A DNA stretch of 64,000 bases from Lysinibacillus sphaericus (GTDB lineage Bacteria; Bacillota; Bacilli; Bacillales_A; Planococcaceae), in the NCBI RefSeq assembly GCF_006864135.1, contig NZ_SADV01000005.1:124001-188000 (forward strand), read 5' to 3'. The notes below the pieces were generated by a model. The model was not told the DNA's origin, did not search any database, and worked only from the letters and a program-made list of their open reading frames with translations. The stretch's first letter is position 1. Every line of letters starts with the position of its first letter. This document shows, piece by piece, positions 18,523-63,835 of this stretch. The translations under genes were made by a program, and so were the position numbers.

Positions 18523-18712
18523 TCAATTATGCCTCGGCACAATTGCGTCTAGAATCGGCTTTGTGCTTAGGCCAACAGATGTTTTTTGCGCGAAAGCGTA
18601 GTGCTAACGCAGCTCAGCAGCAAGAAGTTGGTCACTCAGTCGTTGCCACAGCACGTGGCGTTCTTAGACTGAGTTCCTCTATTTCAGCGGATGTTTGGAC
18701 AACTGCTGAAAA
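18523..18712 (+). repeat. Dispersed repeat family A, copy A3
   Basis: It begins with CAATTATGCC-TC-GGCACAATTG, then GCGTCTAGAATCGGCTTTGT, GGCCAACAGATGTTTTTTGC and GCGAAAGCGTAGTGCTAACG. A long hairpin follows, with arms ACTCAGTC (18634-18641) and GACTGAGT (18667-18674) around an inner GCCAC/GTGGC stem. It lies exactly between the preT stop region and the preA ribosome binding site, inside an operon. The 3' end of preT itself runs into related sequence (TGTACC-GTCGCTA near 18771). Confidence 0.75.
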
Positions 18713-18782
18713 GTAACTTTAACTTGCATTCACCTCACCACCTATTGAGATGGGAGCTTCTGCAACTCATCTGTACCTGTCG

Positions 18783-20165
18783 CTACGCTTTCGGTACAAT
18801 AGACACTTTGCTGAAAGAAGTTAAACGTTCATGGATCTTTTTTGCTGCGTTTTTACCTTGCTGTACAGCGGTTACAACCATCGCCTCGCCCTGGCCATTT
18901 CCGAAAACGACATCTCCACACGCAAATACTTTGTCATTCGAAGTTTGCATTGTCGTTTCATCAATATCGACAACACCATTTGTATGCTGTAAGCCAAAAG
19001 CTTCAATCAATGACACGAAACGGGTTTGCCCAATTGCCTTAATAACTGCATCCACTTCAATAATAAAATTGGACCCCTTAATCTCCTCAGGTCTTTGACG
19101 ACCATCAGCACCCGCTTCACCGAGCCTCATTTTTACACATTCAATGCCTACGACCTCGCCTGACTCATTACCAATAATTTTTTTCGGTGCTGTTAACCAC
19201 TTAAACTCCACATTATCCTGCTTGGCAAATTCATATTCAAATTTGTACGCCGTCATTTCCTTTTGTGTTCTTCTATAAAGAATTTGAACATTGTCAGCAC
19301 CTAAGCGCACTGCACATGTAGCACCGTCAATCGCGGTATTTCCCGCACCAATGACAGCCACCCGCTTCCCAACAATATCTTTTGTAAGCGGTCCCATTTT
19401 TGTTTTTCTGACAAACTCTATCGCATCATGTACACCGTCTAAATCTTCTCCTTCAATGCCCAGATTCGGCACAGCTCCCATACCCACTGCTAAAATAACA
19501 CTGTCATATTGCTCCAAAATTTCTTCAGCAGAAATCTCTACACCGACAGTTGTGTTCGTTTTGATTTCCACACCAAGCTTTTCGATTTGTTCAATTTCCC
19601 AATCAACGACTTCATTTGGTAAACGGAACGACACTATACCAAAGTTCCCTAAGCCACCAGCTTTCGCTTCAGCTTCATAAATAGTGACCTGATAACCAAT
19701 TCGGCTGAGTTCACGCGCAGCCGATAAACCAGCAGGACCTGCACCAATAATCGCTACCTTCTGTCCATTGCTTTGCCCTTGCTTAAATAGCTGAACACTC
19801 GTTGACATTGCCCAATCTGTTGCATAGCGCTGCAGCTCCCCGATTTTAATTGGCTTTGTTGAGGAATTTAACACACACGCCCCTTCACATAGTTCCTCCG
19901 TTGGACAAACCCTTGCACAACTTGCACCAATTGGATTTGCTTCTAATATAGTCGTAGCAGAGCCCTTCAAATTACCAGAAGCAATTTTTTTTATGAAATT
20001 TGGAATTTGAATACTCGTTGGACAAGCTTTAATACATGGTGCATCGTAGCAATATAGACAACGATTGGATTCCTCTATTGCTTCATTCTTTGTCATCCTG
20101 CTAGTCAATTCCATAAAATTACGTGTTAACAGTTGGGACATTGTATTTTCTTGATTCGGAGCCAT
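18783..20165 (-). CDS. preT: NAD-dependent dihydropyrimidine dehydrogenase, subunit PreT
   Basis: The electron-transfer partner of PreA, passing electrons between NAD(H) and the FMN subunit through FAD and Fe-S clusters. The N-terminal Cys-rich region CLYCYDAPCIKACP and GASCARVCPTEELCEGAC binds 4Fe-4S clusters. FAD-binding GAGPAGLSAARELSRIGYQ follows, then NAD(P)-binding VIGAGNTAIDGATCAVRLG and the FAD-closing FACGDVVFGNGQGEAMVV. The ATG at 20165 has GGGAG eight bases upstream; the alternative GTG at 20171 is too close to it. Length is 460 residues. The last codons (SIVPKA) fall in repeat-like sequence. Confidence 0.95.
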   Translation of the reverse strand: MAPNQENTMSQLLTRNFMELTSRMTKNEAIEESNRCLYCYDAPCIKACPTSIQIPNFIKKIASGNLKGSATTILEANPIGASCARVCPTEELCEGACVLNSSTKPIKIGELQRYATDWAMSTSVQLFKQGQSNGQKVAIIGAGPAGLSAARELSRIGYQVTIYEAEAKAGGLGNFGIVSFRLPNEVVDWEIEQIEKLGVEIKTNTTVGVEISAEEILEQYDSVILAVGMGAVPNLGIEGEDLDGVHDAIEFVRKTKMGPLTKDIVGKRVAVIGAGNTAIDGATCAVRLGADNVQILYRRTQKEMTAYKFEYEFAKQDNVEFKWLTAPKKIIGNESGEVVGIECVKMRLGEAGADGRQRPEEIKGSNFIIEVDAVIKAIGQTRFVSLIEAFGLQHTNGVVDIDETTMQTSNDKVFACGDVVFGNGQGEAMVVTAVQQGKNAAKKIHERLTSFSKVSIVPKA

Positions 20166-20171
20166 TTCCAC

Positions 20172-20459
20172 ATCTCCCTCATGTGTTCATTTTTTCCTTT
20201 TTATTACCCTTTGGCGTAGTTTTCGCTGCTAGAACCATTGAAAAAGAGCACCACCTAGAGAGATAGATAGTCTTCTGCAGCTAATGAAGATATTACGAGA
20301 CCGATTGCTCTGTTCTCCATCCAAAGCAATCGGTCATAAAGTGAAACTTTAACCAGTGGGGTTTTTATTCATCCCCACTGATTATTAGTTGAACGAATCG
20401 GGCTTTTAAGGGCAGTCCTACCTTCTTTGCTGTTGCAAATATCTTGTGGCAGGATAATG
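20172..20459 (-). other. Intercistronic region with two hairpins between hydantoinase gene and preT
   Basis: GACCGATTGCT and AGCAATCGGTC (about 20301-20335) form one perfect stem. CAGTGGGG and CCCCACTG (about 20353-20383) form another. Neither has a strong T tract on the minus strand. They could tune expression between the hydantoinase gene and preT-preA. Confidence 0.5.
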
Positions 20460-21863
20460 CTAAATGTTTAGTGCTTCCGCAGCCGTTGTTTTTAATGCAC
20501 GTTTTATATATTGCCCGCTACCTAGTACACCAACAAATTCTTTATTTTTAATGACATATTCGCCACGTACTAGTACGCTTATTGGTTCACCCGTTACTTC
20601 CCATCCCTCATATGGGTTATAATCTACGTTCATATGATGTGTTTTCGCAGAAATTTCTCGTTTTATCTCTGGATCAAAAATAACGATATCGGCATCAGAA
20701 CCGATTGCAATCGTCCCTTTTTGTGGGAATAAACCAAATATTTTTGCTGCACTTGTGGAAATCATATCGACAAACTCATTGATAGAAATTTTTCCTTTTG
20801 CCACACCTTCTGAATATAAAATACTAAAGCGATCTTCAATAAAAGGCCCACCATTAGGAATTTTAGAAAAATCATTTATTCCTAACTGCTTTTTACCCTT
20901 AAAACTAAATGAACATTGGTCAGAGCCAATTGTTTGTAGTTGTTTTGCTTTTAGAGCATTCCATAAATGATCCTGATGGTATTTCGGTCGAAGTGGTGGG
21001 GACCAAACATATTTTGCACCCTCAAAACCTGGTTGTGCTAAAGCAGATTGATCCAAAGTTAAATATGGTGGACATGTTTCACCATAAACGTCATAGCCTT
21101 TTTCACGCGCAGCAATGATCTCATCTACTGCCTCTTTACAAGTTACGTGCACAACATAAAGGGTAGCGCCAGCAATATGGGCTAACTCAATCGCACGTTT
21201 TGTCGCTTCGCCTTCTAATTCAGCTGGACGAGTGAGCGCATGATAAATCGGCTCCTTATGACCTGCACGTCGCGCCTCTTCTACAAGCTCATCAATAACA
21301 GAACCATTTTCACAGTGCACCATAACAACAGCACCGAGGTTTTTCGCCATTTTAAAAGCTTTAAAAAGGGTGCGATCCGAGGCTTGAAATTCTTTCGCAT
21401 AAGCCATAAATACCTTGACAGAAGTAATACCCTCTTGCTCTAAGATCTGCGGCAATTCGGCTTCTGTTTCAGTGGTTAAATCACCAATCATTAAGTGGAA
21501 TCCATAGTCTATGGCTGATTTCCCCTTCGCCTTGTCATGCCACTTTTCAACTGCAGCTGAAAGTTTATCCTCGCCAGCCGTTAAGCAGAAATCCAAAATA
21601 GTAGTAGTCCCACCGAAAGCCGCTGCAATAGTACCAGATTTCCAATCATCATCAGTCACAGTATGGTTAAATGGCATATCTAAATGTGTGTGTGGATCAA
21701 TTCCTCCTGGCATCACATATTTACCAGTAGCATCAATAACTTCTGCCCCAATGTCAGATAGATTTTTGCCAATTTGTACAATTTTTCCGTTTTCAATTAA
21801 AATATCTGCCTCAAAAACATCTGCAGCTGTCGCCACTCGTCCACCTTTAATAATTTTTTTCAT
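20460..21863 (-). CDS. Dihydropyrimidinase / D-hydantoinase
   Basis: A metal-dependent cyclic amidohydrolase that opens dihydrouracil or 5-substituted hydantoins to N-carbamoyl amino acids. The binuclear metal site is visible: PGGIDPHTHLDMPF (two His), SVKVFMAYAKEFQ (Lys that is carboxylated), VVMVHCENG and TLYVVHVTC (His), and TIGSDQCSF (Asp). Length is 467 residues from the ATG at 21863, which has GTGAGGGG upstream. It follows the M20 amidohydrolase gene by 66 bases. Within the pathway it acts after PreTA and before the N-carbamoyl hydrolase. Members are often annotated hydA or dhT; exact substrate preference is not deducible. Confidence 0.94.
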   Translation of the reverse strand: MKKIIKGGRVATAADVFEADILIENGKIVQIGKNLSDIGAEVIDATGKYVMPGGIDPHTHLDMPFNHTVTDDDWKSGTIAAAFGGTTTILDFCLTAGEDKLSAAVEKWHDKAKGKSAIDYGFHLMIGDLTTETEAELPQILEQEGITSVKVFMAYAKEFQASDRTLFKAFKMAKNLGAVVMVHCENGSVIDELVEEARRAGHKEPIYHALTRPAELEGEATKRAIELAHIAGATLYVVHVTCKEAVDEIIAAREKGYDVYGETCPPYLTLDQSALAQPGFEGAKYVWSPPLRPKYHQDHLWNALKAKQLQTIGSDQCSFSFKGKKQLGINDFSKIPNGGPFIEDRFSILYSEGVAKGKISINEFVDMISTSAAKIFGLFPQKGTIAIGSDADIVIFDPEIKREISAKTHHMNVDYNPYEGWEVTGEPISVLVRGEYVIKNKEFVGVLGSGQYIKRALKTTAAEALNI

Positions 21864-21929
21864 TCTGCCCCTCACCCTTCGTAAAATAATGGAGAAAGCT
21901 CTATCATGACAATGTTAGGAAAATCTACT

Positions 21930-23174
21930 TTAATGTAACGTGTAAGATTCCCCCATACTGAACTTTGTTTGTAGCATTAACACTGTTTCTAGTAATACAT
22001 CTGCTCCTTTCGCACAATCCTCAAATGTTGTTTCCTCTTCCTCGCAATGACTCTTACCATTAATACTTGGTACGAAAATCATCGCTGATGGAACAATGCT
22101 TGCCATGTATTGCGCATCATGTCCTGCCCCGCTAAACATTCGGTGAGCAGTATAACCAAAGCTCTGACAAGCCCTTTCCACTTCATTACAAATATGAGTA
22201 TCAAAATAGACTGTATCTCTACCCCATAGCTTAACTGGCTTAATGCTACAGCCCATATCCTCTGTAGGAAGATTATTCAGTATGGCCTCTACCTTTTGCA
22301 TGACCTCTGGTTTTTGATGACGTGAATCTATCGTAAATGTCACATTGTTCGGTATCACGGTATGAATATTTGGTGAAACATTCATTCGTCCAAATGTAAA
22401 CACTAACTGTTCATCGATTTTTCCGAGCTCTTCATGTAAATACGAAATGATTTTTGAAGTTACGATCATCGGATCTTGACGCATTGTCATCGGTGTCGTT
22501 CCAGCATGATTGGACTGCCCTGTAACCGTAATCTCATAGCACACCATACCTAATACACCTTCAACAACGCCAATTTCCAACTGCTTTGCCTCTAGAACAG
22601 GTCCTTGTTCGATATGCAATTCAATATAAGCAAGTGCTTCCTTTAAGCGATTTTCTTGATCTCCTTCATAGCCACTTGCTTGCAGTGCTTCTTTGAAACT
22701 AGTGCCGTTTTTGTCGATAGATTGCAGCATTTTTTCTTTATCAAATTTCGCTGAAATAACTCCAGAGCTCATCATGGCTGGATCAAAACGAGCACCTTCT
22801 TCATTCGTGAAATTCACAATCATTATCGGGATATCTAGCTCAATCTCGTTTTCTTTTAATGTTCTAATGGCCTCAATAGCCGTTAAAACGCCTAATACAC
22901 CATCAAATTTCCCACCCTTTTCAACGGAATCTAAATGCGACCCCATAACAATTGGAGGAACATCCTTTTTCCCAGGTAAAATAGCATAAACATTACCCAT
23001 ATCATCGATTTTGATGTCCATCCCTAATTCATCACAACACTCACAAAAATAGTTTCTTGCTAATACATCCTCATTCGAAAGAGACAAACGAGTTACGCCA
23101 CCATTTTCAGTAGCTCCAAATTGGCTAAATTGTGCAATTAACTCTTGCAATCGTCTACTATTACACTTATACAT
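21930..23174 (-). CDS. M20-family N-carbamoyl amino acid amidohydrolase / beta-ureidopropionase type
   Basis: The enzyme hydrolyses N-carbamoyl compounds (N-carbamoyl-beta-alanine, N-carbamoyl-L-amino acids or allantoate) to the amino acid, CO2 and ammonia. Metal ligands are visible in VMGSHLDSVEKGGKFDGVLG, TNEEGARF and ELHIEQGPVLE, and the dimerisation-domain signature in GQSNHAGTTPMTMRQDP. Near the C-terminus is SGAGHDAQYMA. Length is 414 residues from the ATG at 23174 (GAGAGGA upstream); the frame is open to 23207. It is the first gene of the minus-strand operon, transcribed away from the pucR-type gene. In this context a beta-ureidopropionase role is the most likely, giving beta-alanine; allantoate amidohydrolase cannot be excluded. 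Confidence 0.92.
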   Translation of the reverse strand: MYKCNSRRLQELIAQFSQFGATENGGVTRLSLSNEDVLARNYFCECCDELGMDIKIDDMGNVYAILPGKKDVPPIVMGSHLDSVEKGGKFDGVLGVLTAIEAIRTLKENEIELDIPIMIVNFTNEEGARFDPAMMSSGVISAKFDKEKMLQSIDKNGTSFKEALQASGYEGDQENRLKEALAYIELHIEQGPVLEAKQLEIGVVEGVLGMVCYEITVTGQSNHAGTTPMTMRQDPMIVTSKIISYLHEELGKIDEQLVFTFGRMNVSPNIHTVIPNNVTFTIDSRHQKPEVMQKVEAILNNLPTEDMGCSIKPVKLWGRDTVYFDTHICNEVERACQSFGYTAHRMFSGAGHDAQYMASIVPSAMIFVPSINGKSHCEEEETTFEDCAKGADVLLETVLMLQTKFSMGESYTLH

Positions 23175-23256
23175 ATGCAAGTCCTCTCTTTCACAGTAGT
23201 TATACACATTCTATAAAAGATAAAAATTATGAGATATAGATAGCAAACTAAAAAAA

Positions 23257-23274
23257 TATGTGCATCTGCACATA
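23257..23274. promoter_or_regulatory. Palindromic operator candidate between the pyrimidine operon and pucR-type gene
   Basis: TATGTGCA-TC-TGCACATA is a perfect palindrome in the 138-base divergent intergenic region. It is well placed to control both directions. PucR of Bacillus acts on purine-degradation genes; that this site binds the local regulator is inference. Confidence 0.6.
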
Positions 23275-23312
23275 ATATATGGTAAGTTATGTTCATAATA
23301 AGGGGGGAGAAA

Positions 23313-24482
23313 ATGGGGACAATTCGCAAAATTGTAGAGGGAGTTCAATTCCCAATGCTAACATTAGTAGCTGGACATAACGGAACGTATCGAAGAGTTA
23401 CAGGGATTAACGTAGTAGAAAGCATCGATTTAATTATGTTTTGTAGACCTAATGAATTAGTCGTGACTACAGGTATTAATTTATCTTCTGATGGAGATTC
23501 CTTAGAGCAACTCGTAAAACTAGCTTTCACTAAAAAAGTAGCTGGTTTCATTTTTAATACTGGCCCATATATTCCAAATATACCAGAATCAGTCATCTCT
23601 TTTGCCAATGAACATGATTTCCCTATTTTTCATATGCCATGGAATTATCGAATAGCCGATCTATTAAAAACAACATTTCAATTTATCGCCAATCACCATC
23701 AAGAGCTTTCTATCGAAGAAAAGGTTCTTTATAACTTACTTTTTCACTACAAACAAAACGCCAACTATATTAAAGATCAATTAGCACTACTAGGTTTTCC
23801 ACAAGGTAAGGAACTAGCCATTATTTCATGTACAACAAATGGTGCACAAGCTAATATTGACCGTTACGAGGTCATGATCCAATTTGCATTTCAAAATAGA
23901 TATAAACGCTTCTTAAAACTTAAACATAAAAATCACCTCATCTTTTTAATCGACAGAGCACAAATCAATACACCAAATACTCCCTTCTCAAAAGTTGTTG
24001 AAGAAATTTACGACAAAATTACGCAAAAAAATGGTTACTTGGATATTATCATAGGTAAAGGAAATTATCATAAAGAGCTTGAAAATGTCCGCAAAAGCTA
24101 TAATGAGTCATTAACAGTTATCCAATTAGCAAAGCTTCATAACAATCGCTTCCTATATAAATATAAAGAAATTGGTGCCTACAAAATTATCATGGCCGTG
24201 CAAAATCAAACATTAATCAAATCATATAGCCAAGACATTTTAGGTCAGCTTTATCGCTATGATGAATTGCATAACTCAGATTATGTACAATTTCTACGCA
24301 TTTATCTCGATGAAAATGGAAGTACCCGTAGGATTAGTGAGCGTCTATTTATTCATCGCAACACAGTACTTTATAAAATAAAAAAAGTAGAAACGCTATT
24401 AGATATGGACTTAAGCAACCCATTTACAAAAACAAATCTCTATATTGCATTTTTGATTGAGGATGTGTTGACGCACCAATAA
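23313..24482 (+). CDS. PucR-family transcriptional regulator of pyrimidine/hydantoin catabolism
   Basis: 389 residues. The N-terminal PucR domain (about residues 1-120) begins MGTIRKIVEGVQFPMLTLVAG and includes FCRPNELVVTTGINL and EHDFPIFHMPWN. A central region of GGDEF-like fold follows. The C-terminal helix-turn-helix has RISERLFIHRNTVLYKIKK. PucR proteins are activators or repressors of purine and related catabolic operons and respond to pathway intermediates. The ATG at 23313 follows AGGGGGGAG; the frame is open to 23289. Divergent orientation from the catabolic operon, with a perfect palindrome between them, supports local control. Confidence 0.9.
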   Translation: MGTIRKIVEGVQFPMLTLVAGHNGTYRRVTGINVVESIDLIMFCRPNELVVTTGINLSSDGDSLEQLVKLAFTKKVAGFIFNTGPYIPNIPESVISFANEHDFPIFHMPWNYRIADLLKTTFQFIANHHQELSIEEKVLYNLLFHYKQNANYIKDQLALLGFPQGKELAIISCTTNGAQANIDRYEVMIQFAFQNRYKRFLKLKHKNHLIFLIDRAQINTPNTPFSKVVEEIYDKITQKNGYLDIIIGKGNYHKELENVRKSYNESLTVIQLAKLHNNRFLYKYKEIGAYKIIMAVQNQTLIKSYSQDILGQLYRYDELHNSDYVQFLRIYLDENGSTRRISERLFIHRNTVLYKIKKVETLLDMDLSNPFTKTNLYIAFLIEDVLTHQ

Positions 24483-24646
24483 ATTTTATCACCATAAGAT
24501 TTCCGTTCTAAACTCCCAAAATCTAGTTTGTTGGTGTCCATATACTATTTCTAAGTGATTGCGGCTAATGAAGGGCTTCTAGAACCGCTTCGTCATCACG
24601 GTGCCAATCCCTTATATCTTTGCGGATTTTTATCTTAGCTATAACG

Positions 24647-24683
24647 AAAAAACTGACGCACCAAATGGTCATCAGTTTTTTTT
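24647..24683. terminator. Bidirectional terminator between pucR-type and DUF378 genes
   Basis: AAAAAACTGA and TCAGTTTTTT are perfectly complementary (24647-24656 and 24672 on). It ends the pucR-type gene on the plus strand and the DUF378 gene on the minus strand. The 24483-24646 gap holds nothing else recognisable. Confidence 0.75.
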
Positions 24684-24700
24684 GAGGAATAAACTCGAGG

Positions 24701-25081
24701 TTATTTTTTGTTTTTATTTTTATTTTTACTATGTGAATCTTTTTTTTCTTCTTTTAGCACATTAGTTGTTTTTAAAGCAGTAAAATCTGCTTCATCACCA
24801 AACTCCATACCATAGTTTGGATTTCTGTCTATGCGAGTATGATGGTCATGGTCATGATTTAAATCAGGAACAAGATCTTCGTCCTCATCAAATCGCATAA
24901 TAAGAACAGGTAAGGATATTAGTCCTGCTAATCCAACGAATGCATAAATCCATCGTGACAATACTGCTGTCTGTCCACCGAACAAATAGGCAACTAAATC
25001 AAATCTAAAGAATCCTATAAGTCCCCAGTTGATTGCGCCTATGATGACTAACACTAAAGCGATTCTATAAACTACGCTCAC
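24701..25081 (-). CDS. DUF378 (YuzA-like) small membrane protein
   Basis: 126 residues from the GTG at 25081, which has GGAGG seven bases upstream; the frame extends to 25135. The N-terminal 65 residues form the DUF378 domain with two transmembrane helices: YRIALVLVIIGAINWGLIG and a second around WIYAFVGLAGLISLPVLI. The C-terminal tail is hydrophilic, with an acidic stretch (DEDEDLVPD), a His/Asp run (DHDHHT) and a Lys/Asn-rich end. DUF378 proteins have no known function. The His/Asp tail could bind metal, but that is a guess. The usual YuzA protein is shorter, so the tail is an extension. Confidence 0.82.
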   Translation of the reverse strand: MSVVYRIALVLVIIGAINWGLIGFFRFDLVAYLFGGQTAVLSRWIYAFVGLAGLISLPVLIMRFDEDEDLVPDLNHDHDHHTRIDRNPNYGMEFGDEADFTALKTTNVLKEEKKDSHSKNKNKNKK

Positions 25082-25135
25082 GTTTACACCTCCTTCACTT
25101 GTAAATACGAAGCCAGTAATATACCGGAAGTTCAT

Positions 25136-25719
25136 TCTTCACATGTATAATAAGCGTCGATATTGCAAAAAAAAATGTCATAACAAGTGGTAAAATTACA
25201 AATACTTATTGTGTAAATTAACTCGCTCATTTGACGGTCTTATTTTTAGCAGTAACCGCTTATTTATACAAAGGCATTCCTGGCTAAGTTATATTACAAA
25301 CAAAGGGAACGTTAAAAGTTGAAGACAATAAACCGCTTTTTAAAATGCTGCTTATTACTACATCTGAAAAATCCAACTCACCTTCTGCATTCTCCTTACT
25401 GGTTTACAGCCATCATATTATAAGGAAATATCCATTTACTTCGTCCTTATTCTTGTTCTTATGGTCTTTGAAAAAATCGAAGAAATCCTAACCAAATCAT
25501 CTACCAATTGGCTATTTAAATAGAACAGCAATTTGTTGACCGCTGATCGGAAAAGCCACCAAGATTGTGATGAACTAAATATCTAAAATAGTACTTAACG
25601 CTAACTTATTTAGTTTCAAAATCAAAATAATTACCAAACATAAATATTACATATAATAAATGTGAATAGTCTATAAAAAATTTTCAATACCAATATTCTA
25701 CAAAAAGAAAGGGAGTATT
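25136..25719. other. Intergenic region with possible decayed coding sequence
   Basis: About 580 bases with no intact gene. On the plus strand, short open stretches read LAHLTVLFLAVTAYLYKG (about 25220-25283) and, in another frame, ISIYFVLILVLMVFEKIEE (about 25430-25490, ending in TAG near 25520). These are hydrophobic and could be the remains of a small membrane protein gene, but I do not recognise a family. Confidence 0.35.
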
Positions 25720-25896
25720 ATGAAAAAACTGATAATCATTAGGATTTTAGCATTTTTAGCCGTATCACTAATCCTTTTTGCAGATGGTGTCCAAACAGCT
25801 GATTTTCTTTTTTGTCTTCTATTGTCACTATTCTTTATTGGTAATCCTTGGTACGAACTTTTTAAACATAAATTTAGGATTAGGAGAAATCTGTAA
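25720..25896 (+). CDS. Small membrane protein, 58 residues, unknown
   Basis: The start ATG follows GAAAGGGAG by four bases. The protein begins MKKLIIIRILAFLAVSLILF, has a short polar break (ADGVQTAD), then a second hydrophobic segment FLFCLLLSLFFIG, and ends with a basic tail KHKFRIRRNL. This predicts two membrane helices with the tail in the cytoplasm. A bidirectional terminator follows about 50 bases after the stop codon. I do not know the family. The gene is supported by its ribosome site, membrane pattern and terminator rather than by homology. Confidence 0.6.
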   Translation: MKKLIIIRILAFLAVSLILFADGVQTADFLFCLLLSLFFIGNPWYELFKHKFRIRRNL

Positions 25897-25947
25897 AAGG
25901 TACTTTATCTATGGGCAAACTAATAAAATTTTCACATCAAAAAAGCA

Positions 25948-25987
25948 TGAGAAATCAACTTTTTACATTGATTTCTCACACTTTTTA
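25948..25987. terminator. Bidirectional terminator between the 58-aa gene and dinG
   Basis: TGAGAAATCA (25948-25957) pairs perfectly with TGATTTCTCA (25969-25978). T-rich tails are present on both strands, so it can end both convergent genes. Confidence 0.8.
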
Positions 25988-26014
25988 AAGTTTTGACCAG
26001 AAAAGGGATTTCAA

Positions 26015-28849: not shown

Positions 28850-28873
28850 CCCTTCTCCTCTTTAGATTAAACA

Positions 28874-28906: not shown

Positions 28907-28913
28907 CTCTCTA

Positions 28914-44350: not shown

Positions 44351-44434
44351 CATTATATTTGCCTGCTCTCCTCGAATAAAACATTTTACTTTTTCGTTGA
44401 AGGTAGGCTTTTTTTACATAGTAAATTAACGGAT

Positions 44435-48798: not shown

Positions 48799-48827
48799 CT
48801 CACAAACCTCCTCTAGTTGCATAAATC

Positions 48828-48955
48828 CATTTCGCCTTGGCGTAATTCCGTCCGGATTTTGAATTGTGCCTGCACAAATCCTTCCTTTCAAAATCTGTGA
48901 CATCCGCCGGGGCTTTATCTTCATGCAGTTGGGTTTGGTACCCCACTACATGAAG
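48828..48955 (+). repeat. Dispersed repeat family A, copy A4
   Basis: ATTTCGCC-TT-GGCGTAAT opens the copy, followed by TCCGTCCGGATTTTGAATTG and CATCCGCCGGGGCTT. Compared with A7 the palindrome changes an A-T/T-A pair to C-G/G-C on both arms, so pairing is kept. It lies between ypiB and the ypiF ribosome site. Confidence 0.65.
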
Positions 48956-51000: not shown

Positions 51001-51005
51001 AAATA

Positions 51006-51415
51006 TCAATTTCGCCTTGGCGTAATTGTAGCTGACGCTTTGCTTTCGCTACAGATAAACAATGCTTCCGGATTTTGAATTATGCCCAGGCCTGCACGAG
51101 GGCCCGTCACGATGTCAGTCATTTCGGTAATGCCACAGAACTTGGCTTTTTACCGATCCAGGTCAATTAGCCTTTTTCGCAGGATGCAAAGGTTTTAGGC
51201 TAACTGACTTTATTCATTATTTGAAAATCCGTGACATCCGCCGGTGGCTTTAGGCCAACAGATGTTTTTTGCGCGAATGCGTAGTGCCCGTAGACCAGCA
51301 GCGCGATGTTGGTCACCCAGTCGTATGTTGTTGTTGTTGTTGTCGCTTTCGCACAGATAAATTGCCACAGGACGTGACGTTTTAAACTGGGTTCCTCTAT
51401 TTCAGTAGGTGCTTG
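51006..51415 (+). repeat. Dispersed repeat family A, long copy A5
   Basis: It begins CAATTTCGCC-TT-GGCGTAATTG, followed by TAGCTGACGCTTTGCTTTCG and CTTCCGGATTTTGAATTATG. A hairpin with arms TCGGTA/TACCGA spans 51115-51150, then one with TTAGCC/GGCTAA near 51169-51205. A second block follows: GGCCAACAGATGTTTTTTGC and an ACCCAGT/ACTGGGT hairpin (about 51315-51393). Its loop has five GTT triplets (51326-51343). It fills the whole aroA-ypiA gap. Confidence 0.75.
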
Positions 51416-51475
51416 CAGCAGCATTCATCATACTACCTTTAGAGGTGGATTCTTCTACTGAATGAAGATATGACA

Positions 51476-55039: not shown

Positions 55040-55056
55040 CTCAAACATCTCCTCTA

Positions 55057-55425: not shown

Positions 55426-56513
55426 ACAAGCACCTCCGCTAATAGTTGTCGGAATTCGGCATCTACTTCTCTACACTCCGCTAAATCAATTGGTTGCACG
55501 AACGGTTTACCAATTTTCTCCAACAACACAAATTGTAAAATACCATACTCCGCTTTTTTATCTTTCATTAAATACTCTGTTAACTGTTCAAATGAATATT
55601 CTTTTACAGCTTCAAATGGATAGCCATTCTTCACTGCAAACTGCAAAAATGCTGTAGTGAAGTTACGATCTAATTCACCGTATCGTTCACTTAATAATAA
55701 ACAATATACTAGACCAATCATGACAGCCTCGCCATGTGCTACTTTTCCATAACCAGCGGCCGCTTCAATGGCATGCCCATAAGTATGGCCTAGATTTAAA
55801 AATTTTCGCACAGATTGCTCAGTCTCGTCCTCTGCTACTATTTGCGCCTTCACTTCAATACCTTTTCTAAGCTGTTTCGCTAATTCTTCGGTCGTGAAAT
55901 GAATAACTGTCTCAGCAGCCATTAATTCCTCTAACCACGCTGCATTAGAAATCATCGCATGCTTGATCACTTCTGCTGTTCCTGAACGTACCTCGCGTTC
56001 AGGTAAGCTTTCGATAAAGACAGTATCGTAAATAACTCCCTCAGGTTGATAAAACGCACCAATCATATTCTTACCTAGCGGATGGTTAATAGCTGTTTTA
56101 CCACCTACTGCTGAGTCATGTGCCAAAATCGTCGTTGGGATTTGAATAAACGGCACCCCTCGCATATAAGTAGCTGCAACAAAGCCTGTTAAATCACCTA
56201 CAGCTCCCCCACCAAATGCAAAAACAAATGATTTACGCGAGCATTTTTGTTCAAGTAAAAATGTTTGCGCTGCATTGTATTGTTCAAAGGTTTTACATGC
56301 CTCACCACCTGGTAAGACAAAGACCTCAAAATGATAAGGGAAATTAGCCTTGAAATAATCTCCTTGTGCTGCCCACACATTAGCATCCGTAAAAACAATG
56401 AGCTTATCCGCTTTTTGAAGCTTATCATCAAATGATTTTACTGCTTCTACTAAAAATTTATGACCAAGGACAACCTCATATTGATGCGATTTCGTCGCTA
56501 CTGGTACTCGCAT
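55422..56513 (-). CDS. aroB: 3-dehydroquinate synthase
   Basis: Second enzyme of the shikimate pathway; NAD- and metal-dependent. Motifs are FAFGGGAVGDLTGFVAATYMRG, PTTILAHDSAVGGKTAINHPLGKN, and the metal-ligand His in NLGHTYGHAIEAA and AHGEAVMIGLVY. Length is 363 residues. One base separates it from aroC. Confidence 0.97.
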   Translation of the reverse strand: MRVPVATKSHQYEVVLGHKFLVEAVKSFDDKLQKADKLIVFTDANVWAAQGDYFKANFPYHFEVFVLPGGEACKTFEQYNAAQTFLLEQKCSRKSFVFAFGGGAVGDLTGFVAATYMRGVPFIQIPTTILAHDSAVGGKTAINHPLGKNMIGAFYQPEGVIYDTVFIESLPEREVRSGTAEVIKHAMISNAAWLEELMAAETVIHFTTEELAKQLRKGIEVKAQIVAEDETEQSVRKFLNLGHTYGHAIEAAAGYGKVAHGEAVMIGLVYCLLLSERYGELDRNFTTAFLQFAVKNGYPFEAVKEYSFEQLTEYLMKDKKAEYGILQFVLLEKIGKPFVQPIDLAECREVDAEFRQLLAEVLV

Positions 56514-56514
56514 A

Positions 56515-57696
56515 TTAGAACCCCTTTGTATAACGACGGTGTTCGTCGATTTGAGCTTTTAGTTGAGGTAATTGATCGCTATGGAATTGTTCTAATATTG
56601 CATTCGCTATTTCCCAGGCAATAACATGCTCTGCAACAACTGATGCTGCAGGTACTGCACAGCTATCCGAGCGCTCTACACTTGCTTTAAATGGCTCTTT
56701 CGTTTCAATATCTACACTTTGCAACGGTTTATATAAAGTAGGAATTGGTTTCATGACACCACGTACGACAATTGGCATTCCAGTAGACATTCCCCCTTCT
56801 AAACCACCAAGTCGGTTGGTTGCACGTGTATAGCCTTCTTCCTCTGACCAAATGATTTCATCATGAACTTCAGAGCCTTTACGGCGCGCCATTTCAAAGC
56901 CAATTCCAAATTCAACACCTTTAAATGCATTGATAGATAACATGGCAGCTGCTAATTTTGCATCTAACTTACGGTCATAATGAACGTATGAACCGACACC
57001 AGCTGGCATTCCTTCAACGATGACTTCAACAACACCACCAATTGAGTCACCCGCTTTTTTCGCTTCATCAATTGCCTCCACCATTTTTGCCGAAGCCTCT
57101 GGATCAACGCAATAGCAAGGATCTGCTTCAACAATGGCACGAATTTCATCTGCAGATTTTCCTTCCACTACGGAAGTATCTGCCTTAATACCAACGATTT
57201 CTGTTACATGTGCCACAATGGAAATGCCTAATTCATTTAATAGCGCTTTAGCAACAGAACCTACTGCTACACGAACAGTTGTCTCACGCGCCGAAGAACG
57301 CTCTAGTACATTACGTAAATCACGGTGTCCGTATTTCATGCCTCCTACTAAATCTGCATGCCCTGGTCGAGGACGTGAAATTTGACGTTTGATATCTTCA
57401 GGATTCACATCTTCTGCTAAAGGTTCTGCTCCCATAATTTTTGTCCAGTGCTTCCAGTCATCATTTGTGACTACGAGTGCTACAGGAGAACCAAGTGTTT
57501 GTCCATGACGAACACCAGCGACCACTTCCACTGTATCTGTTTCGATTTGCATACGGCGGCCGCGTCCATGTCCTCCTTGACGACGTTTTAAATCGTGGTT
57601 AATTTTTTCTGCTGAAATTGGTAAGAGCGACGGTAGGCCCTCAATAATTGTTGTTAATTGGGGTCCGTGTGACTCTCCCGCTGTTAAGTAACGCAT
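56515..57696 (-). CDS. aroC: Chorismate synthase
   Basis: Last enzyme of the shikimate pathway, FMN-dependent (aroF in B. subtilis). Motifs are [64 protein letters not shown], and [13 protein letters not shown]. Length is 393 residues. First gene of the minus-strand aroC-aroB-aroH-hisC-tyrA-aroA block. Confidence 0.97.
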
Positions 57697-58011
57697 AAAC
57701 GCTTTCTCCCTTCAACTCGCTAAAGTATGTATTTTTCACTATAACATATATTCTCTAAAAAAACAGTCCTTTTGCAATTGTCTTTTAACACTCATTTTAA
57801 TGATTCGCAAATTCCGAATCATTGAAAGCAACTCCTATCGTTTTCGAAGTTAGTTTAGATGTAATGTTAAATTTGAATATTCTGAACGATTTGTTCGAAA
57901 AAAATTTCATCATCTCCACTAATTGTTAGTCTTCACCAATCAGTTAATCCCCTACCTAAGCTTTCGTTAAATTTTGTGGTTGGAGTCTTACTGCCTGAGA
58001 TGCGAGATAAC
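57697..58011. other. aroC upstream region with a palindrome
   Basis: About 315 bases. AATGATTCG (57799-57807) and CGAATCATT (57815-57823) form a perfect inverted repeat with a seven-base centre, about 100 bases before aroC. It may be an operator or leader hairpin. No gene, T-box or known riboswitch pattern was recognised. Confidence 0.45.
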
Positions 58012-58052
58012 TAAAAAAATACGCTTTTTGCTTATATCAAGCGAAAAGCGCA
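58012..58052 (-). terminator. Terminator after cheR
   Basis: GCTTTTTGCTT pairs with AAGCGAAAAGC, with one mismatch. A run of seven T follows on the minus strand, about 85 bases past the cheR stop. Confidence 0.7.
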
Positions 58053-58135
58053 CGATTCATCTATGTCTAAAACTTCGGAAATATGTACATGACATTCATA
58101 TTGTCTCTGTACGAATGCTTTTCTCATATTATTAA

Positions 58136-58939
<804 letters not shown>

Positions 58940-58990
58940 TTATAGCGGAAAAGTGCCATTTCTGAAATAGTCTTTCACATGTAATCCAAG

Positions 58991-59218
58991 TTACTTAGTT
59001 GAGTTTTGTTTTTCCTCTAACAATAACACTTTGGATTGCTCTAATTCTAGACGTAATTTTTCTGTCTCCATCGTATACGTTTCTAATCTTAGCTTCTCTA
59101 GCTCTACTTCCTTTTCAATTGCCTTCAATTTAATATTTTGTTTTTTTGTATGTGTATCTGTAAAAATACCTGCTAAACAAATAACTACTCCTGCAATAAT
59201 CCCCATCTCCGCTATCAA
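58991..59218 (-). CDS. Small protein with membrane helix and coiled coil
   Basis: 75 residues from the TTG at 59218 (78 from the GTG at 59227). One N-terminal membrane helix (GIIAGVVICLAGIFTD) is followed by a long charged helix with leucine/isoleucine heptads, KAIEKEVELEKLRLETY and EKLRLELEQSKVLLLEEK, typical of a coiled coil. AAAGGA lies upstream. I do not recognise the family. It might anchor or oligomerise beside cheR, but nothing shows a chemotaxis role. Confidence 0.65.
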   Translation of the reverse strand: MIAEMGIIAGVVICLAGIFTDTHTKKQNIKLKAIEKEVELEKLRLETYTMETEKLRLELEQSKVLLLEEKQNSTK

Positions 59219-59309
59219 TACGTCCACATCCTTTCATTAATAATGATTATACGGCAAAATGGAAAAAAAGCTAAAATATTCTCTTTACCATGTGTTAAAC
59301 GTAGCTAGA

Positions 59310-59375
59310 TCAATTATGTCTCGGCATAATAGCGTATAGACTTTGTGCTAGTACAAAGCCGGAACCCCACGTTAT
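59310..59375 (+). repeat. Dispersed repeat family A, short copy A6
   Basis: CAATTATGTC-TC-GGCATAAT is followed by AGCGTATAGACTTTGTGC and a CTTTGTGC/GTACAAAG inverted repeat. Only the 5' part of the family is present. Confidence 0.6.
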
Positions 59376-59409
59376 GGGTATAAGCCTATATCCCTTATAT
59401 TTTTACGTA

Positions 59410-59446
59410 AAAAATGAAGGTAGTTAGTCACCACCTTCATTTTTTA
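59410..59446. terminator. Strong bidirectional terminator after the acyl-CoA synthetase gene
   Basis: AAAAAATGAAGGT (59410-59422) pairs perfectly with ACCTTCATTTTTT (59434-59446). Confidence 0.85.
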
Positions 59447-59453
59447 TAGTCTC

Positions 59454-61079
59454 CTAAACCTCTACACGATAATCCCTTAAATCATCTCGCAATTTCACCT
59501 TCATGAATTTTCCTACAGAAGTTTTCGGTATTTCATTTAAAAATACTACATCATCAGGAATCCATGTTTTATGGAATTGCGATCGTAAAACTTCTAGTAG
59601 CTCGGATTTCGTAATGGAATCCTTATATTCAGGCTTTGGTACAACACATGCTAAAGGTCGTTCAATCCATTTTTCGTGGGGAATGGCTATTACAGCAGCC
59701 TCAAACACTTTAGGATGTGACATCAAAGCATTTTCAAGCTCTACTGAAGAAATCCATTCTCCACCGCTTTTAATTAAATCTTTTGTACGATCTGTAATTT
59801 TAATATAACCATCTACTGTCACTACAGCAATATCACCAGTGTAAAGCCAGCCATCTTTAAAGGCTTCCTTTGTTCGTTCATCGTTATAATACTCGGCTGC
59901 AATCCACGGGCCCCTAATTGTCAATTCGCCCATTGTTTTGCCATCCCAAGGGACTTCACCGTTTTCATTGACTACGCGTGTTTCAATAAGCGGTACTGTT
60001 ATTCCTTGCGTAATACGAACATCCATTTTTTCATCCATCGTATAATCTTGCATATGTGTTAAATACGTCGATATACTAACAAGTGGCGATGTCTCGGTCA
60101 TACCGTAGCCCGTCATGTAAGGAATTTTAAGTTCCTCCTCAAAGCCACGAGTTAGACCGAGCGGCGATGCTGAGCCTCCACATACAATCAACCGTATCGA
60201 AGACAAATTACGAGGATTTTTGCGTTGCTCCTGCAATACCCCAAGCCAAATTGTCGGTACTCCTGCAGTCAGTGTTACCTTATATGTTTCGATTAAATCA
60301 AGTAATAGCTGTGGAGTAAACATTGGCCCTGGTAGTACCTGGGTAGCACCAAATAATACACCAGCAAACGGAAATCCCCACGCATTCGCATGAAACATCG
60401 GTACAACAGGTAGTAAAACATCAGCCTCGCCTATTGCAATACTATCGGAGAGTCCTGCTGCCATAGTATGGAGAACAATACTACGATGCGTATACACTAC
60501 ACCCTTTGGCATTCCTGTAGTGGCACTTGTGTAGCACATGCCAGCAGGTGTATTTTCATCTAAATCATCTGGGAATCTAAAATTCTCATTCGCTTCTTCG
60601 AGTAATGCCTCATAAGATAGAGCATTCGGTAATGGGATGTTTTCTAGCACAACAGCATCTCCCATTACGATAAAACACTTTACCGATTTAAGCTGTGAGA
60701 CAATCGGTGCAAGAAGTGGAACTAAGTTATCATCAATTAGTAATATTTCATCTTCTGCATGGTTTATAACATAAGCAATGTGCTCAGGTGCTAATCGAAT
60801 ATTTATCATATGCAAGACAGCTCCCGCGCATGGGACTGCAAAATATGCTTCTAAATGACGGTGGTGATTCCAAGCAAAGGTACCTACCTTCATACCTCGC
60901 TCCATTCCTAGCTTTGTAAGGGCATCTGCTAGCATACGAGTTCGTTTTACATATTCTTTATATGTAAACTCGTGAATTGATGTAGAGCTTGTCCGCGAAT
61001 ATATTTTTTTCGCATAAAAAAATCGTTCTGCTCGATCCAAAAAACTTGTTAATAATAAAGGTGTATCCATCATATGCAT
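59454..61079 (-). CDS. Long- or medium-chain fatty acid-CoA ligase
   Basis: A 541-residue AMP-forming acyl-CoA synthetase that activates fatty acids. Motifs are YTSATTGMPKGVVYTHRS (ATP loop), GYGMTETSPLVS, WLYTGDIAVVTVDGYIKITDRTKDLIKSGGEWIS and PKTSVGKFMKVKLR with the catalytic Lys. No membrane segment. GGGGAG lies seven bases before the ATG. With the SDR and thiolase downstream in position but transcribed before it, it makes a lipid-degradation group; a family B repeat lies between. Confidence 0.92.
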   Translation of the reverse strand: MHMMDTPLLLTSFLDRAERFFYAKKIYSRTSSTSIHEFTYKEYVKRTRMLADALTKLGMERGMKVGTFAWNHHRHLEAYFAVPCAGAVLHMINIRLAPEHIAYVINHAEDEILLIDDNLVPLLAPIVSQLKSVKCFIVMGDAVVLENIPLPNALSYEALLEEANENFRFPDDLDENTPAGMCYTSATTGMPKGVVYTHRSIVLHTMAAGLSDSIAIGEADVLLPVVPMFHANAWGFPFAGVLFGATQVLPGPMFTPQLLLDLIETYKVTLTAGVPTIWLGVLQEQRKNPRNLSSIRLIVCGGSASPLGLTRGFEEELKIPYMTGYGMTETSPLVSISTYLTHMQDYTMDEKMDVRITQGITVPLIETRVVNENGEVPWDGKTMGELTIRGPWIAAEYYNDERTKEAFKDGWLYTGDIAVVTVDGYIKITDRTKDLIKSGGEWISSVELENALMSHPKVFEAAVIAIPHEKWIERPLACVVPKPEYKDSITKSELLEVLRSQFHKTWIPDDVVFLNEIPKTSVGKFMKVKLRDDLRDYRVEV

Positions 61080-61509
61080 AGAAACGCTCCCCTTTGTTTA
61101 TATAAATTTTTGAATCGTCCAAGGCTAACTGCTACTACCAATAATTACATATAAAAGGATCATCACCAAAACGTGTAGTTGATTTCCGTTCCGGCTGGGC
61201 GCTTTTTTGCTGATGCTTCGCTTTCGCGCAGAGCAAAGCTACCTGGGGGCGTCCGATGAACCGCTAATCCCCAAGGAGTCGCCCAGCCCCCACTCCACTC
61301 AACTTATTTACATAGTAGACGTTTTAACAAAAGTCATCTACAACTCTTGGTGTGAACCATATAAAACAAGTTATTTTTTCGCTCGCTGCCGCAGACAAAT
61401 ACCTTTTAACTTCCGTGCTTCACAAATGCGTAATCACAGGAGCCTTTCTCTCTTTGCTCTATGAACAGCCAAGCTTATTTAGTTTGAGGCGAGCACCTTG
61501 AAGTTCCCC
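61080..61509. other. Intergenic region between acyl-CoA synthetase and SDR genes
   Basis: About 430 bases. It holds repeat copy B2 and, right of it, AT-rich DNA with short pieces (CGCTCGCTGCCGCAGACAAA near 61380) like repeat family A. No coding frame was recognised. Confidence 0.55.
61177..61303 (+). repeat. Dispersed repeat family B, copy B2
   Basis: GTTGATTTCCGTTCCGGCTG at the left and GCCCCCACTCCACTCAAC at the right give terminal GTTGA/TCAAC, and GGCTGGGC pairs with GCCCAGCC inside. The middle has GCTTCGCTTTCGCGCAGAG and CCTGGGGGCGTCCGATGAAC. Compared with B1 the stem pair G-C is changed to A-T on both sides. Confidence 0.7.
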
Positions 61510-62271
61510 CTATTTTGGCTGCATACGAATCGCGCCGTCCAAGCGGATTACTTCACCATTTAATAAACCATTTTTGATAATACTTTCGACTAATAGCGCG
61601 TATTCTGATGGCTTCCCAAGTCGTTTAGGGAACGGTGTCATTTGGGCAAGTGCTGTTCTTGCTGGCTCTGCTAACGATGCAAACATTGGTGTCTCTACTA
61701 ACCCTGGAGCAATAGTCATAACACGTACCCCAATTTCAGCAAGCTCCCTAGCAATCGGCAAGGTCATCGCTGCCACACCACCCTTTGACGCGCTATATGC
61801 TGCTTGTCCTATTTGTCCATCAAATGCTGCCACAGATGCAGTATTGATAATAACGCCACGCTGACCATCCTCGTTTGGTTCATTATGTTGCATCTTCTCA
61901 GCTGCTAGGCGAATAACATTGAAAGTACCAATTAAATTTACAGAAATCACTTTTTCGAATAAATCAAGGGCATGTACACCACGCTTTGAAAGTACTTTAC
62001 TTGCATCAGCAATTCCAGCACAATTCACTGTGACATTAATGGCCCCAAACCTTGCAACTGCTTGCTCAAGACCTGCTGCTACATCAGCTTCTTTTGTGAC
62101 ATTTACACGTGCATATTGGACATTCTTCCCTAACTCCTCTACTAGTGCATGTCCTCGTTCGTCATTAAGATCAAAAATTACTGCTTTGCCACCCTCCGCA
62201 ACAATTTTACGAACCGTCGCCTCTCCTAAACCAGATGCTCCCCCTGTTACAACTGCTATTACTTCATTCAT
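61510..62271 (-). CDS. SDR oxidoreductase, 3-hydroxyacyl-CoA dehydrogenase (HSD10-like)
   Basis: 253 residues. NAD-binding [28 protein letters not shown], the catalytic [26 protein letters not shown], and [10 protein letters not shown]. The insert and the [23 protein letters not shown] end match HSD10-type 3-hydroxyacyl-CoA dehydrogenases more than fatty-acid-synthesis FabG. The ATG at 62271 follows AGGGG; a TTG at 62280 is too close. Fifteen bases after the thiolase gene, so it probably forms an operon with it. Confidence 0.9.
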
Positions 62272-62286
62272 CAAACACAACCCCTT

Positions 62287-63435
62287 TTACATTTTTTCAA
62301 TAATAGTGGCATTCGCCATTCCCATACCTTCACAAATTGCTAGTAAGCCATAACGTAAATTTTCTCGTTCCATTCTGTATAGCATCGTTGTTAACAGTTT
62401 TGTACCTGACGCTCCTAATGGATGCCCTAAGGCAATTGCTCCTCCATATGGATTTAATTTATTTGGATCTGCTCCAATTTCATGTAACCAAACAAGTGGT
62501 ACTGGCGCAAAAGCCTCATTCACTTCATACGTATCAATTTCCTCTATCTTAAGACCTGAACGTTTTAGCGCTTGTCTAGTTGCTTCAATTGGACCAGTTA
62601 GCATTAACGTCGGATCTGAGCCAACAACAACTCTTGAAACAATTTTAGCAAGCGGTTGGATGCCAAGCTCTTGTGCCTTTTCTAAAGACATTATAACTAC
62701 CGCTGAGGCACCATCACTCATTTGACTAGCATTACCGGCTGTAATCACGCCATCTTCCTGGAATACTGTTTTAAGACCATTCAATTTATCAACTGTCGTT
62801 TCTGCCCGAGGACCCTCATCAACAGAAAACGTTGTAACTACGCCGTCTTCTTGCGTAACTTGGACAGGCAATATTTCCTTTTTAAAATGGCCCGCCTCAA
62901 TTGCAGCTAATGCTCGTCTATGACTATTGTAAGCATAGTTATTTAGCTGTTCTTTTGATAAGTTCCATTTTTCCGCTATTTTCTCGGCTGATAACCCTTG
63001 ATGTATAATTGTGTAGTTGTCTTGTAATCGTTTACCTGTATGGGCACCCTTCATGTTAGAACCCATTGACACCCTCGTCATGCTTTCAACCCCACCAGCA
63101 ATAACAATGTCCATATCCCCTGCTAAAATAGCCTGTGCTGCAAAATGTACAGCCTGCTGACTTGAGCCACATTGACGATCGATTGTCACACCAGGGACAC
63201 TATCCGGAAAGCCTGCCATTAACAATGCAGTACGCGCTATATTTGCTCCCTGTTCAGCAGTTTGCGTTACACAGCCAAAGATTACATCTTCCACCTGATC
63301 CTTATTGATACCTGCTCGTTGCACTACTTCCTGCAGAACATCTGCAGCTAAGTCATCTGCTCGAACATCGCTTAATGCCCCTTTACTCCTGCCAACCGCT
63401 GTACGAACAGCTGATACAATCACAACTTCTCTCAT
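62287..63435 (-). CDS. Acetyl-CoA C-acyltransferase (thiolase)
   Basis: 382 residues of the degradative thiolase type. The nucleophile Cys is in TIDRQCGSSQQAVHFAAQAI, the His in GGAIALGHPLGASGTKLL and the second Cys in AICEGMGMANATII. GGVESMTRV and NEAFAPVPL are also conserved. It cleaves 3-ketoacyl-CoA or forms acetoacetyl-CoA. First gene of a thiolase-SDR pair followed by an acyl-CoA synthetase, which fits a fatty-acid beta-oxidation role. Confidence 0.94.
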   Translation of the reverse strand: MREVVIVSAVRTAVGRSKGALSDVRADDLAADVLQEVVQRAGINKDQVEDVIFGCVTQTAEQGANIARTALLMAGFPDSVPGVTIDRQCGSSQQAVHFAAQAILAGDMDIVIAGGVESMTRVSMGSNMKGAHTGKRLQDNYTIIHQGLSAEKIAEKWNLSKEQLNNYAYNSHRRALAAIEAGHFKKEILPVQVTQEDGVVTTFSVDEGPRAETTVDKLNGLKTVFQEDGVITAGNASQMSDGASAVVIMSLEKAQELGIQPLAKIVSRVVVGSDPTLMLTGPIEATRQALKRSGLKIEEIDTYEVNEAFAPVPLVWLHEIGADPNKLNPYGGAIALGHPLGASGTKLLTTMLYRMERENLRYGLLAICEGMGMANATIIEKM

Positions 63436-63525
63436 AAAAAAATCCCCTTTGTACTGTCATCTCTCATTTCCTATCATCCAATGTATTTAGATGTTATGAA
63501 ATATATTCTTGATTATTAAGTTAAT

Positions 63526-63835
63526 CAATTATGCCGAGGCATAATTGTAGCTGACGCTTTGCTTTCGCTACAGCAAACATTTACCGCTGTCGTGCAGATA
63601 AACAATGCGTCCGGAATCGGCTTTGTGCTTTGGCCTGCAGATGTTTTTTGTACAAAAGCGCAGTGCTAACGTAGCGGCAGCAACATATGTTTTTTGTGCG
63701 AAAGCGTAGCGACAGCAGCATAAGAGCCTACACGATGTCGGTCATTTTGGAAATGCCACAGGACGTGGCGTTTTTACCGATGCAGGTCAGTTAGCCGTTA
63801 TCGCATGAATGCGATGATTTTAGGCTAACAGATCT
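63526..63835 (+). repeat. Dispersed repeat family A, long copy A7
   Basis: CAATTATGCC-GA-GGCATAATTG is a perfect ten-base inverted repeat at the start. TAGCTGACGCTTTGCTTTCG, GCGTCCGGAATCGGCTTTGT and GGCCTGCAGATGTTTTTTGT follow, and the last block is then repeated (CAACATATGTTTTTTGTGCG). A hairpin with arms TCGGT/ACCGA encloses a GCCAC/GTGGC stem, and GTTAGCC/GGCTAAC closes the copy, with an ATCGCAT/ATGCGAT inner stem. It lies upstream of the thiolase gene. The remaining bases to 64000 show no gene. Confidence 0.78.

Follow-up and report, generated by a model that had tools for sequence, protein, structure and literature searches.

Repeat elements in the window

The stretch of DNA analysed in this study (the window) comprises 64,000 nucleotides of Lysinibacillus sphaericus (contig NZ_SADV01000005.1, positions 124,001 to 188,000) and contains a family of dispersed, hairpin-forming repeats. 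A first-pass annotation had described them as family A and had considered selection for a structure in RNA or single-stranded DNA, or a miniature inverted-repeat transposable element (MITE) moved by an absent transposase. Two scaffolds, termed alpha and beta, were distinguished; the window harbours eight beta copies, which represent family A, and two alpha copies. Alpha and beta alike can bear a hairpin block (core) with differing arms, which by covariance-model score is a member of the Rfam family RF01690 ("Bacillaceae-1 RNA", gathering cut-off 35 bits). In addition, a unit of about 37 nt (M unit) occurs in both. The features are given below (G numbers denote genomes, L numbers loci).

784..860, minus strand: degenerate beta copy
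4697..4799, minus strand: short beta, absent from G189
10050..10305 (ends approximate), minus strand: alpha copy with RF01690 core at 10190-10254 (arms GAAGGC/GCCTTC) and M unit
10156..10190, plus strand: M unit, within the apical loop of the second core hairpin
17125..17222, plus strand: short beta in opposite orientation, absent from G093
18521..18820, minus strand: beta 'A3', with left hairpin CAATTATGCC/GGCACAATTG, CGTCTAGAATCGG, M unit in a hairpin loop, RF01690 core and end hairpin ..GCTGAAAGAAGTTAAA
18617..18683, minus strand: RF01690 core of A3, arms ACTCAGTC/GACTGAGT, 64.0 bits with the Rfam model and 80.1 bits with our own model
48824..48949, minus strand: beta without RF01690 core, empty in G200 and G189
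51003..51471, minus strand: beta 'A5', with three hairpin modules and M units
51153..51214, minus strand: RF01690-like core of A5, arms AGTTAGCC/GGCTAATT, 36.2 bits Rfam (51158-51214), 45.3 bits own model
51298..51401, minus strand: second RF01690-like core of A5, arms ACCCAGT/ACTGGGT, interrupted by an insert (104 nt versus 67), 34.3 bits own model
59309..59365, minus strand: degenerate beta copy
61152..61357, minus strand: alpha copy without RF01690 core, ends GGATCATCACC and GGTGTGAACC, with ATATAAAA flanking both sides
63524..63840, minus strand: beta 'A7', left-hairpin loop inverted (GA), core at 63777-63841 (37.1 bits own model)
~18576-18626, ~51259-51305 and ~63638-63710: further M units

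At least seven copies had been noted, and the CAATTATGCC palindrome or its variants indeed open copies at 784, 4697, 18522, 48825, 51005, 59309 and 63524; the eighth copy lies in reverse orientation at 17125-17222. Taken alone, the 10-mer CAATTATGCC is weakly enriched (16 occurrences, 7.3 expected). The ordered segments said to be shared by the copies exceed chance: CAGATGTTTTTTGCGCGAA occurs three times exactly and twice with 2-3 mismatches (0.03 expected), and CGTCCGGAATCGG three times at ≤2 mismatches (0.30 expected). However, CAGATGTTTTTTGCGCGAA is no independent landmark, as it belongs to the M unit. The extent given for the family (18523-63835) was too narrow, since copies also lie outside it at 784, 4697, 10050 and 17125.

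Abundance and variation between species

Three blocks on the minus strand of the window (18617-18683, 10190-10254 and 51158-51214) score above the gathering cut-off of RF01690 (64.0, 43.8 and 36.2 bits). For the source genome at least 138 matches were listed, 136 of them above the cut-off (150 of 716 candidates scored). Within 463 kb, consisting of the window and 20 further stretches, 67 clusters of alpha or beta elements were found. Straight extrapolation yields about 740 clusters per genome, a figure which may be high because eight of the 20 stretches come from a contig that had been selected for its known matches. These observations show that the chromosome carries hundreds of short non-coding mobile elements made of interchangeable hairpin modules, and that RF01690 is a module common to several mobile scaffolds, of which alpha and beta are the main ones. 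As judged from the genome sequences compared, both main scaffolds are found at numerous intergenic sites and vary between species in presence and module content.

The A3 site could be anchored in five of seven sister genomes (not in G200 and G178); it is a clean empty site in G166, G189 and G133 and holds other modules in G156 and G093. For A5, the site is empty in G156, G093 and G178, contains other content in G166, G189 and G200, and only tandem M units in G133. The A7 site is empty in G156, G189, G200 and G178. Such polymorphic insertions at orthologous sites support the view that beta is mobile, although mobility is read here from site comparisons and transposition itself was never observed.

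At the site of the short beta at 17125-17222, the G133 ortholog (L083) holds beta in the other orientation, so that the same intergenic site bears opposite orientations in two species.

Alpha and its relation to ISL3-family insertion sequences

The alpha scaffold spans GGTTCATCACCAAAAGTTGTGG to GGTGATGAGCC, with the nested inverted repeats GTTGATT/AATCAAC and GGCTGGGCG/CGCCCAGCC. The repeat GGCTGGGCG/CGCCCAGCC covaries: among 20 copies, the A-T type accounts for 10 and the G-C type for 5, one copy shows an ACAGGG type with one mismatch, and 4 are mismatched. At 10050..10305, a gap of 450 bp corresponds to 3 bp in G133, and the site at 61152..61357 is filled in the window and in G189 and empty in the other six relatives compared. 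An 8-bp target duplication (at least 7 of 8 positions) was detected at 10 of 25 candidate end pairs, which include false pairs, whereas 0.58 were expected and the maximum in 1000 shuffles was 5.

In relatives, insertion sequences (IS) of the ISL3 family were found which have alpha-like ends and are about 1.3 kb long (in L237, 935 bp). Four of them (G093, G156, G200, G102) were compared with alpha and share 23-25 of 30 and 25-27 of 30 identical positions at the two ends. Perfect 8-bp duplications flank these IS at five of seven loci (L233, L235, L237, L243, L244); the other two, L232 and L246, are without duplications and do not fit the assignment. On the basis of its 8-bp target duplications and of terminal inverted repeats resembling those of ISL3-family IS, alpha is classed as a MITE of the ISL3 type, and it probably owes its spread to an ISL3-family transposase such as relatives possess. 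The earlier proposal of a MITE whose transposase is absent is thus supported for alpha. The reading of the copies as fragments of a known IS, which had been named as a possible refutation, applies in part, in that the ends of alpha are ISL3-type IS ends. The ISL3 partner makes the mobility of alpha testable.

The source genome contains 77 exact alpha end matches (none in a reversed-pattern control). No inverted pair 0.5-3 kb apart, as expected of an autonomous alpha IS, was present among these exact matches; mismatched ends would escape this search. ISL3-family matches of the source genome (three stretches at two places) were considered as helper and rejected, since they are broken or incomplete and their ends differ from those of alpha.

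A second group of ISL3-family IS, with the ends GGCTCAACACCAAAATC/GGCTCTTCACCAAAACATG and 8-bp duplications, was observed at L231, L242 (G202) and L245 (G156).

Beta, its orientation and the search for a helper

The left end of beta is a hairpin at CAATTATGCC..GGCATAATTG, which follows directly on AT, and the right end is a hairpin closing with GAAGTTAAA or GAAGATAA. The two ends differ, terminal inverted repeats are absent, and no target duplication was evident in the filled and empty pairs compared. Beta is therefore not a standard MITE, and the former proposal holds for this scaffold only with respect to mobility, which is seen from empty and filled orthologous sites.

The strand of RF01690 follows the gene direction of the leading strand in 55 clusters and is opposed to it in 9 (64 of the 67 clusters, those with two flanking open reading frames; genes were called by a simple longest-frame rule and the leading strand was inferred from the gene majority). 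Between convergent or divergent genes the ratio is 20:2. An independent sample from G133 gave 28:10 overall and 10:3 between convergent or divergent genes. On whole chromosomes, the leading- to lagging-type counts among the matches listed were 23:2 in G195, 29:8 in G133 and 41:18 in G202. For this tally the terminus was assumed half-way from dnaA, the sizes of three chromosomes were rounded, and 148 of 150 listed matches were used, two tandem G192 copies being left out. As the bias is kept between convergent and divergent genes, the orientation appears to be governed by replication and not by transcription, and the elements tend to follow the replication fork. Two results speak against this: the fourth chromosome, G192, showed no bias (15:12 among the matches listed), and the short core motif GAGGAAC[TG], which goes with the leading strand at 38:6 in our own sample, gave 9:14 in the G133 stretches. 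The M unit was also considered as the strand-biased part and was rejected, its own bias being weak (27 versus 18 clusters, 4 mixed, in our own sample; 9:7 and 5:7 in G133).

Beta was probably spread by some replication-linked mechanism. A rival explanation of the structure is structure-specific DNA transposition of the IS200/IS605 or REP type on the lagging-strand template, in which the folded strand is recognised and covariation reflects selection for transposition. The end hairpins of beta, combined with the lack of terminal inverted repeats and of evident target duplications, would suit such a process, as would the orientation, since replication-linked orientation is known for several transposons including IS608 and ISDra2 (as covered in PMC5371812). 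Furthermore, M units contain or resemble GCGAAAGC and GCGAAGC, a type of exceptionally stable DNA mini-hairpin (d(GCGAAGC), according to the part of PMC4686876 consulted). The motif GCGAAAGCR occurs 157 times in 1.26 Mb, with about 19 occurrences expected at equal base use. Nevertheless, this explanation is regarded as unlikely. No match to a Y1 transposase, and hence no RAYT helper as had been suggested, was found in the source genome, while 5 of 14 control genomes were matched. Y1 transposases occur in 21 of 32 genomes of the genus, and none in five of the eight genomes compared in detail. The beta left hairpin flanked Y1 genes at none of 30 Y1 loci of the genus; other beta-like fragments were seen at L269 (right-part motifs at two places) and L280 (one, weak). 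A helper for beta was not found in searches aimed at the Y1 and ISL3 classes only.

Nesting of modules

In three window copies the second hairpin of the core contains the M unit in its apical loop. The same position was found in 6 of 14 resolvable cases of our own sample and in 2 of 9 in relatives, after cases without a 5' arm (28 and 53) had been set aside, which were judged to be mostly chance motif matches. At the orthologous loci L060 and L061 of two species, an extra core module replaces the 5' arm of a small hairpin that is intact in the other species. This nesting might indicate that the hairpin modules themselves are the spreading units: template switching at the fork would place a copy of one hairpin inside a second one, in its loop or its arm, so that elements would grow by nesting without a dedicated transposase, and the "RNA family" would consist of single-stranded DNA structures shaped in this way. 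We attribute only a small likelihood to this possibility.

Another conserved insertion lies at 20340-20453 of the window (CCACTGATTATTAGTTGAACGAATCGGGC...GGGCAGT) and is absent from some relatives. In L054, a similar sequence bears an RF01690 core at an internal junction.

Covariation of the hairpin arms

The arm pairs ACTCAGTC/GACTGAGT, ACCCAGT/ACTGGGT, TCGGTA/TACCGA and GAAGGC/GCCTTC, on which the proposal of covariation had been based, were all found in the sequence, and the first, third and fourth types were seen again in other copies. The pair TCGGT/ACCGA assigned to A7 joins wrong partners, the quoted TCGGT being part of a neighbouring hairpin; in A7 (~63735-63780) the homologous 5' arm TTTTGGAAATG stands against TTTTTACCGATGC, and the pairing is broken. 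Of the paired change postulated for the first palindrome (TATGCC/GGCATA to TTCGCC/GGCGTA), one position is compensatory (T-A to C-G); at the other, the majority of copies of that subfamily have a T·T mismatch. In the TT-loop subfamily of the left hairpin, 18 of 19 rows are not fully paired.

Covariation is beyond chance. In 26 diverse copies, selected for diversity by the analyst from the 53 RF01690 matches then at hand, 96.8% of the cells are paired, compared to 78.7% in shuffles, with 81 double changes (21.3 in shuffles) and 2 single-side standard changes. A loss of covariation in a larger alignment, which had been named as a possible refutation, was not observed, as judged by a shuffle null.

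It could be argued that this pattern merely reflects shared subfamily ancestry in ordinary, decayed MITE families. A few arm types do dominate: 44 distinct arm pairs occur in 82 copies, and three types account for 37 copies. However, paired changes are also found inside subfamilies, where compensatory and non-compensatory double changes numbered 27 and 1 (35 copies) and 36 and 1 (27 copies; both uncorrected for ancestry), as well as across many genera. Moreover, the loop of the left hairpin at 63524 (A7) reads GA where the orthologs of G166 and G133 have TC, an inversion in place. An explanation by ancestry alone is thus very improbable.

Selection on RNA should favour G·U pairs on one strand. 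Among 82 distinct copies (from 110 matches at E ≤ 0.01, including rows used to build the model), 90.1% of the cells are Watson-Crick pairs, and G·U (33 cells) is no more frequent than A·C (36; other 72); a tolerance of G·U over A·C was seen on neither strand. In the flavin mononucleotide (FMN) riboswitch of the same bacterial family, which served as control (25 of 30 loci plus the window copy; L184, L186, L194, L199 and L201 left out), the ratio was 60 to 3. Selection at the RNA level is therefore not supported. In sum, the repeats reported earlier are real and the mobility reading was right in outline, and the RNA reading did not find support.

The proposal that RF01690 is a functional structured RNA, as in Rfam, perhaps a CsrA-binding decoy from the reverse-complement strand which became dispersed and whose hairpins are kept by RNA selection, nevertheless has points in its favour. 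RF01690 is present in 152 of 200 genomes of the bacterial family and in 67 of 299 genomes of the class, loops and joining segments are conserved across genera, the reverse complement has been matched to the CsrA-binding motif (PMC4333381), and between co-directional genes the sense orientation prevails (37 sense, 5 antisense). Beside the missing G·U preference, it is contradicted by the gain and loss of copies between sister species and by eight listed genomes of the genus without any RF01690 match, where others have at least 24. In many copies of the source genome, the second hairpin has ATCGT in place of ATCCT, so that GGA is lost from the other strand. On balance, a functional RNA is considered unlikely.

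It is rather likely that the repeats are mosaic non-coding mobile elements whose arm complementarity is kept at the DNA level, mainly by template switching and not by RNA selection. If the template is switched from arm to arm at the replication fork, one arm would be rewritten from the other in a single event. In RNA hairpins, template switching has been described to produce paired changes in one event and loop inversions (PMC8794818, as far as consulted). At L036:5850, the hairpin CAATTACGCC-AA-GGCGTAATTG stands against CAATTTCGCC-TT-GGCGTAATTG in the subfamily, the loop being inverted and the arms made equal. This inversion and that at 63524 are as expected of template switching according to that description. 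Homogenised arms were also found at L076:4826.

Several points weigh against this interpretation. Clear loop inversions are few (two in about 54 correctly oriented left hairpins, after four GA rows of 58 had been discounted because they represent identical hairpins in the opposite reading direction). The control consists of one RNA family only, the 26 diverse copies give small numbers (G·U 2, A·C 6), and the balance of G·U and A·C is partly, perhaps largely, due to neutral decay because many inserted copies have decayed. Across genera, strong conservation is seen in the RTCCT loop and in the stretches TAA, AAC and GACC, which suggests sequence-specific recognition beyond template switching. 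In addition, the authors of RMfam matched the reverse complement of RF01690 to a CsrA-binding motif (in the part of PMC4333381 consulted).

Comparison with known systems

In Rfam, RF01690 is filed as a small RNA gene; the hairpin block scores as a member of the family, but represents here a high-copy mobile module, and these copies lack the G·U signature of RNA. Alpha resembles ISL3-family IS and MITEs in its ends and 8-bp duplications, which are those of full-length IS of sister species, and differs in that hairpin modules, RF01690 among them, are nested within it and that no intact copy with its ends was found in the source genome. BOX elements of Streptococcus pneumoniae, as portrayed in the accessible part of PMC3049150, are likewise composite intergenic repeats with fixed ends, variable inner modules, predicted hairpins and IS-resembling ends. 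Variable internal modules between fixed ends were found in A3, A5 and L060/L061, a likeness in described architecture. According to the same source, 61-63% of pneumococcal repeats lie on the leading strand, mirroring the coding bias; in contrast, the orientation bias observed here holds between convergent and divergent genes. REP sequences and REPINs with RAYT (PMC3733652, in part) are also dispersed palindromes thought to be moved in trans, but the present elements are larger and modular, and no RAYT/Y1 gene was found in the source genome. The maintenance of hairpins by template switching (PMC8794818) shares the one-event paired changes and loop inversions; the cases in the sections consulted concern RNA genes, whereas mobile DNA repeats would be affected here.

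In the literature on "Bacillaceae-1", as far as its sections were accessible, no description of RF01690 as a repeat was found. A search for Lysinibacillus with miniature inverted-repeat elements returned nothing, and one for ISL3 with MITE and 8-bp nothing related, by title. Relative to the portions of the literature examined, RF01690 as a mobile-element module, the ISL3 partner of alpha and the DNA-type covariation appear to be new. RF01690 is listed among the most abundant small RNAs (PMC9029176, part consulted). If the interpretation is correct, an abundant small RNA entry of Rfam is a module of mobile DNA and small RNA counts are affected. The elements would furthermore represent a natural data set with many copies in each genome, in which template switching, and not RNA selection, makes covariation, and thus a warning for covariation-based RNA discovery as well as a test bed for template switching.

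Other repeats and structured elements

A second structured repeat was detected at 14881-15136 of the window, consisting of tandem arrays of 20/21-nt units (TTCTATCCGTCACTTTGACGG). Such arrays also occur at L033:13-322, L034:56-272, L042:3414-3615 and L044:7674-7962; their small arms differ and are yet paired in places (CCGTCA/TGACGG, CCATCA/TGATGG).

In G133, the locus L084, orthologous to window position 44428, contains an insertion of 2 kb with the IS ends GAGGGCACTGAAAAA inside a related GATTGGAGCG..CGGAAATCAGCC repeat. Its long open reading frame presumably encodes an IS1182-like transposase. The position of this IS inside a GATTGGAGCG..CGGAAATCAGCC repeat hints that IS target hairpin repeats.

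Finally, two tandem FMN riboswitch aptamers, 96% alike, are located at 5578-5703 and 5829-5954 (minus strand) of the window, and tandem FMN matches were also found in other genomes of the bacterial family.

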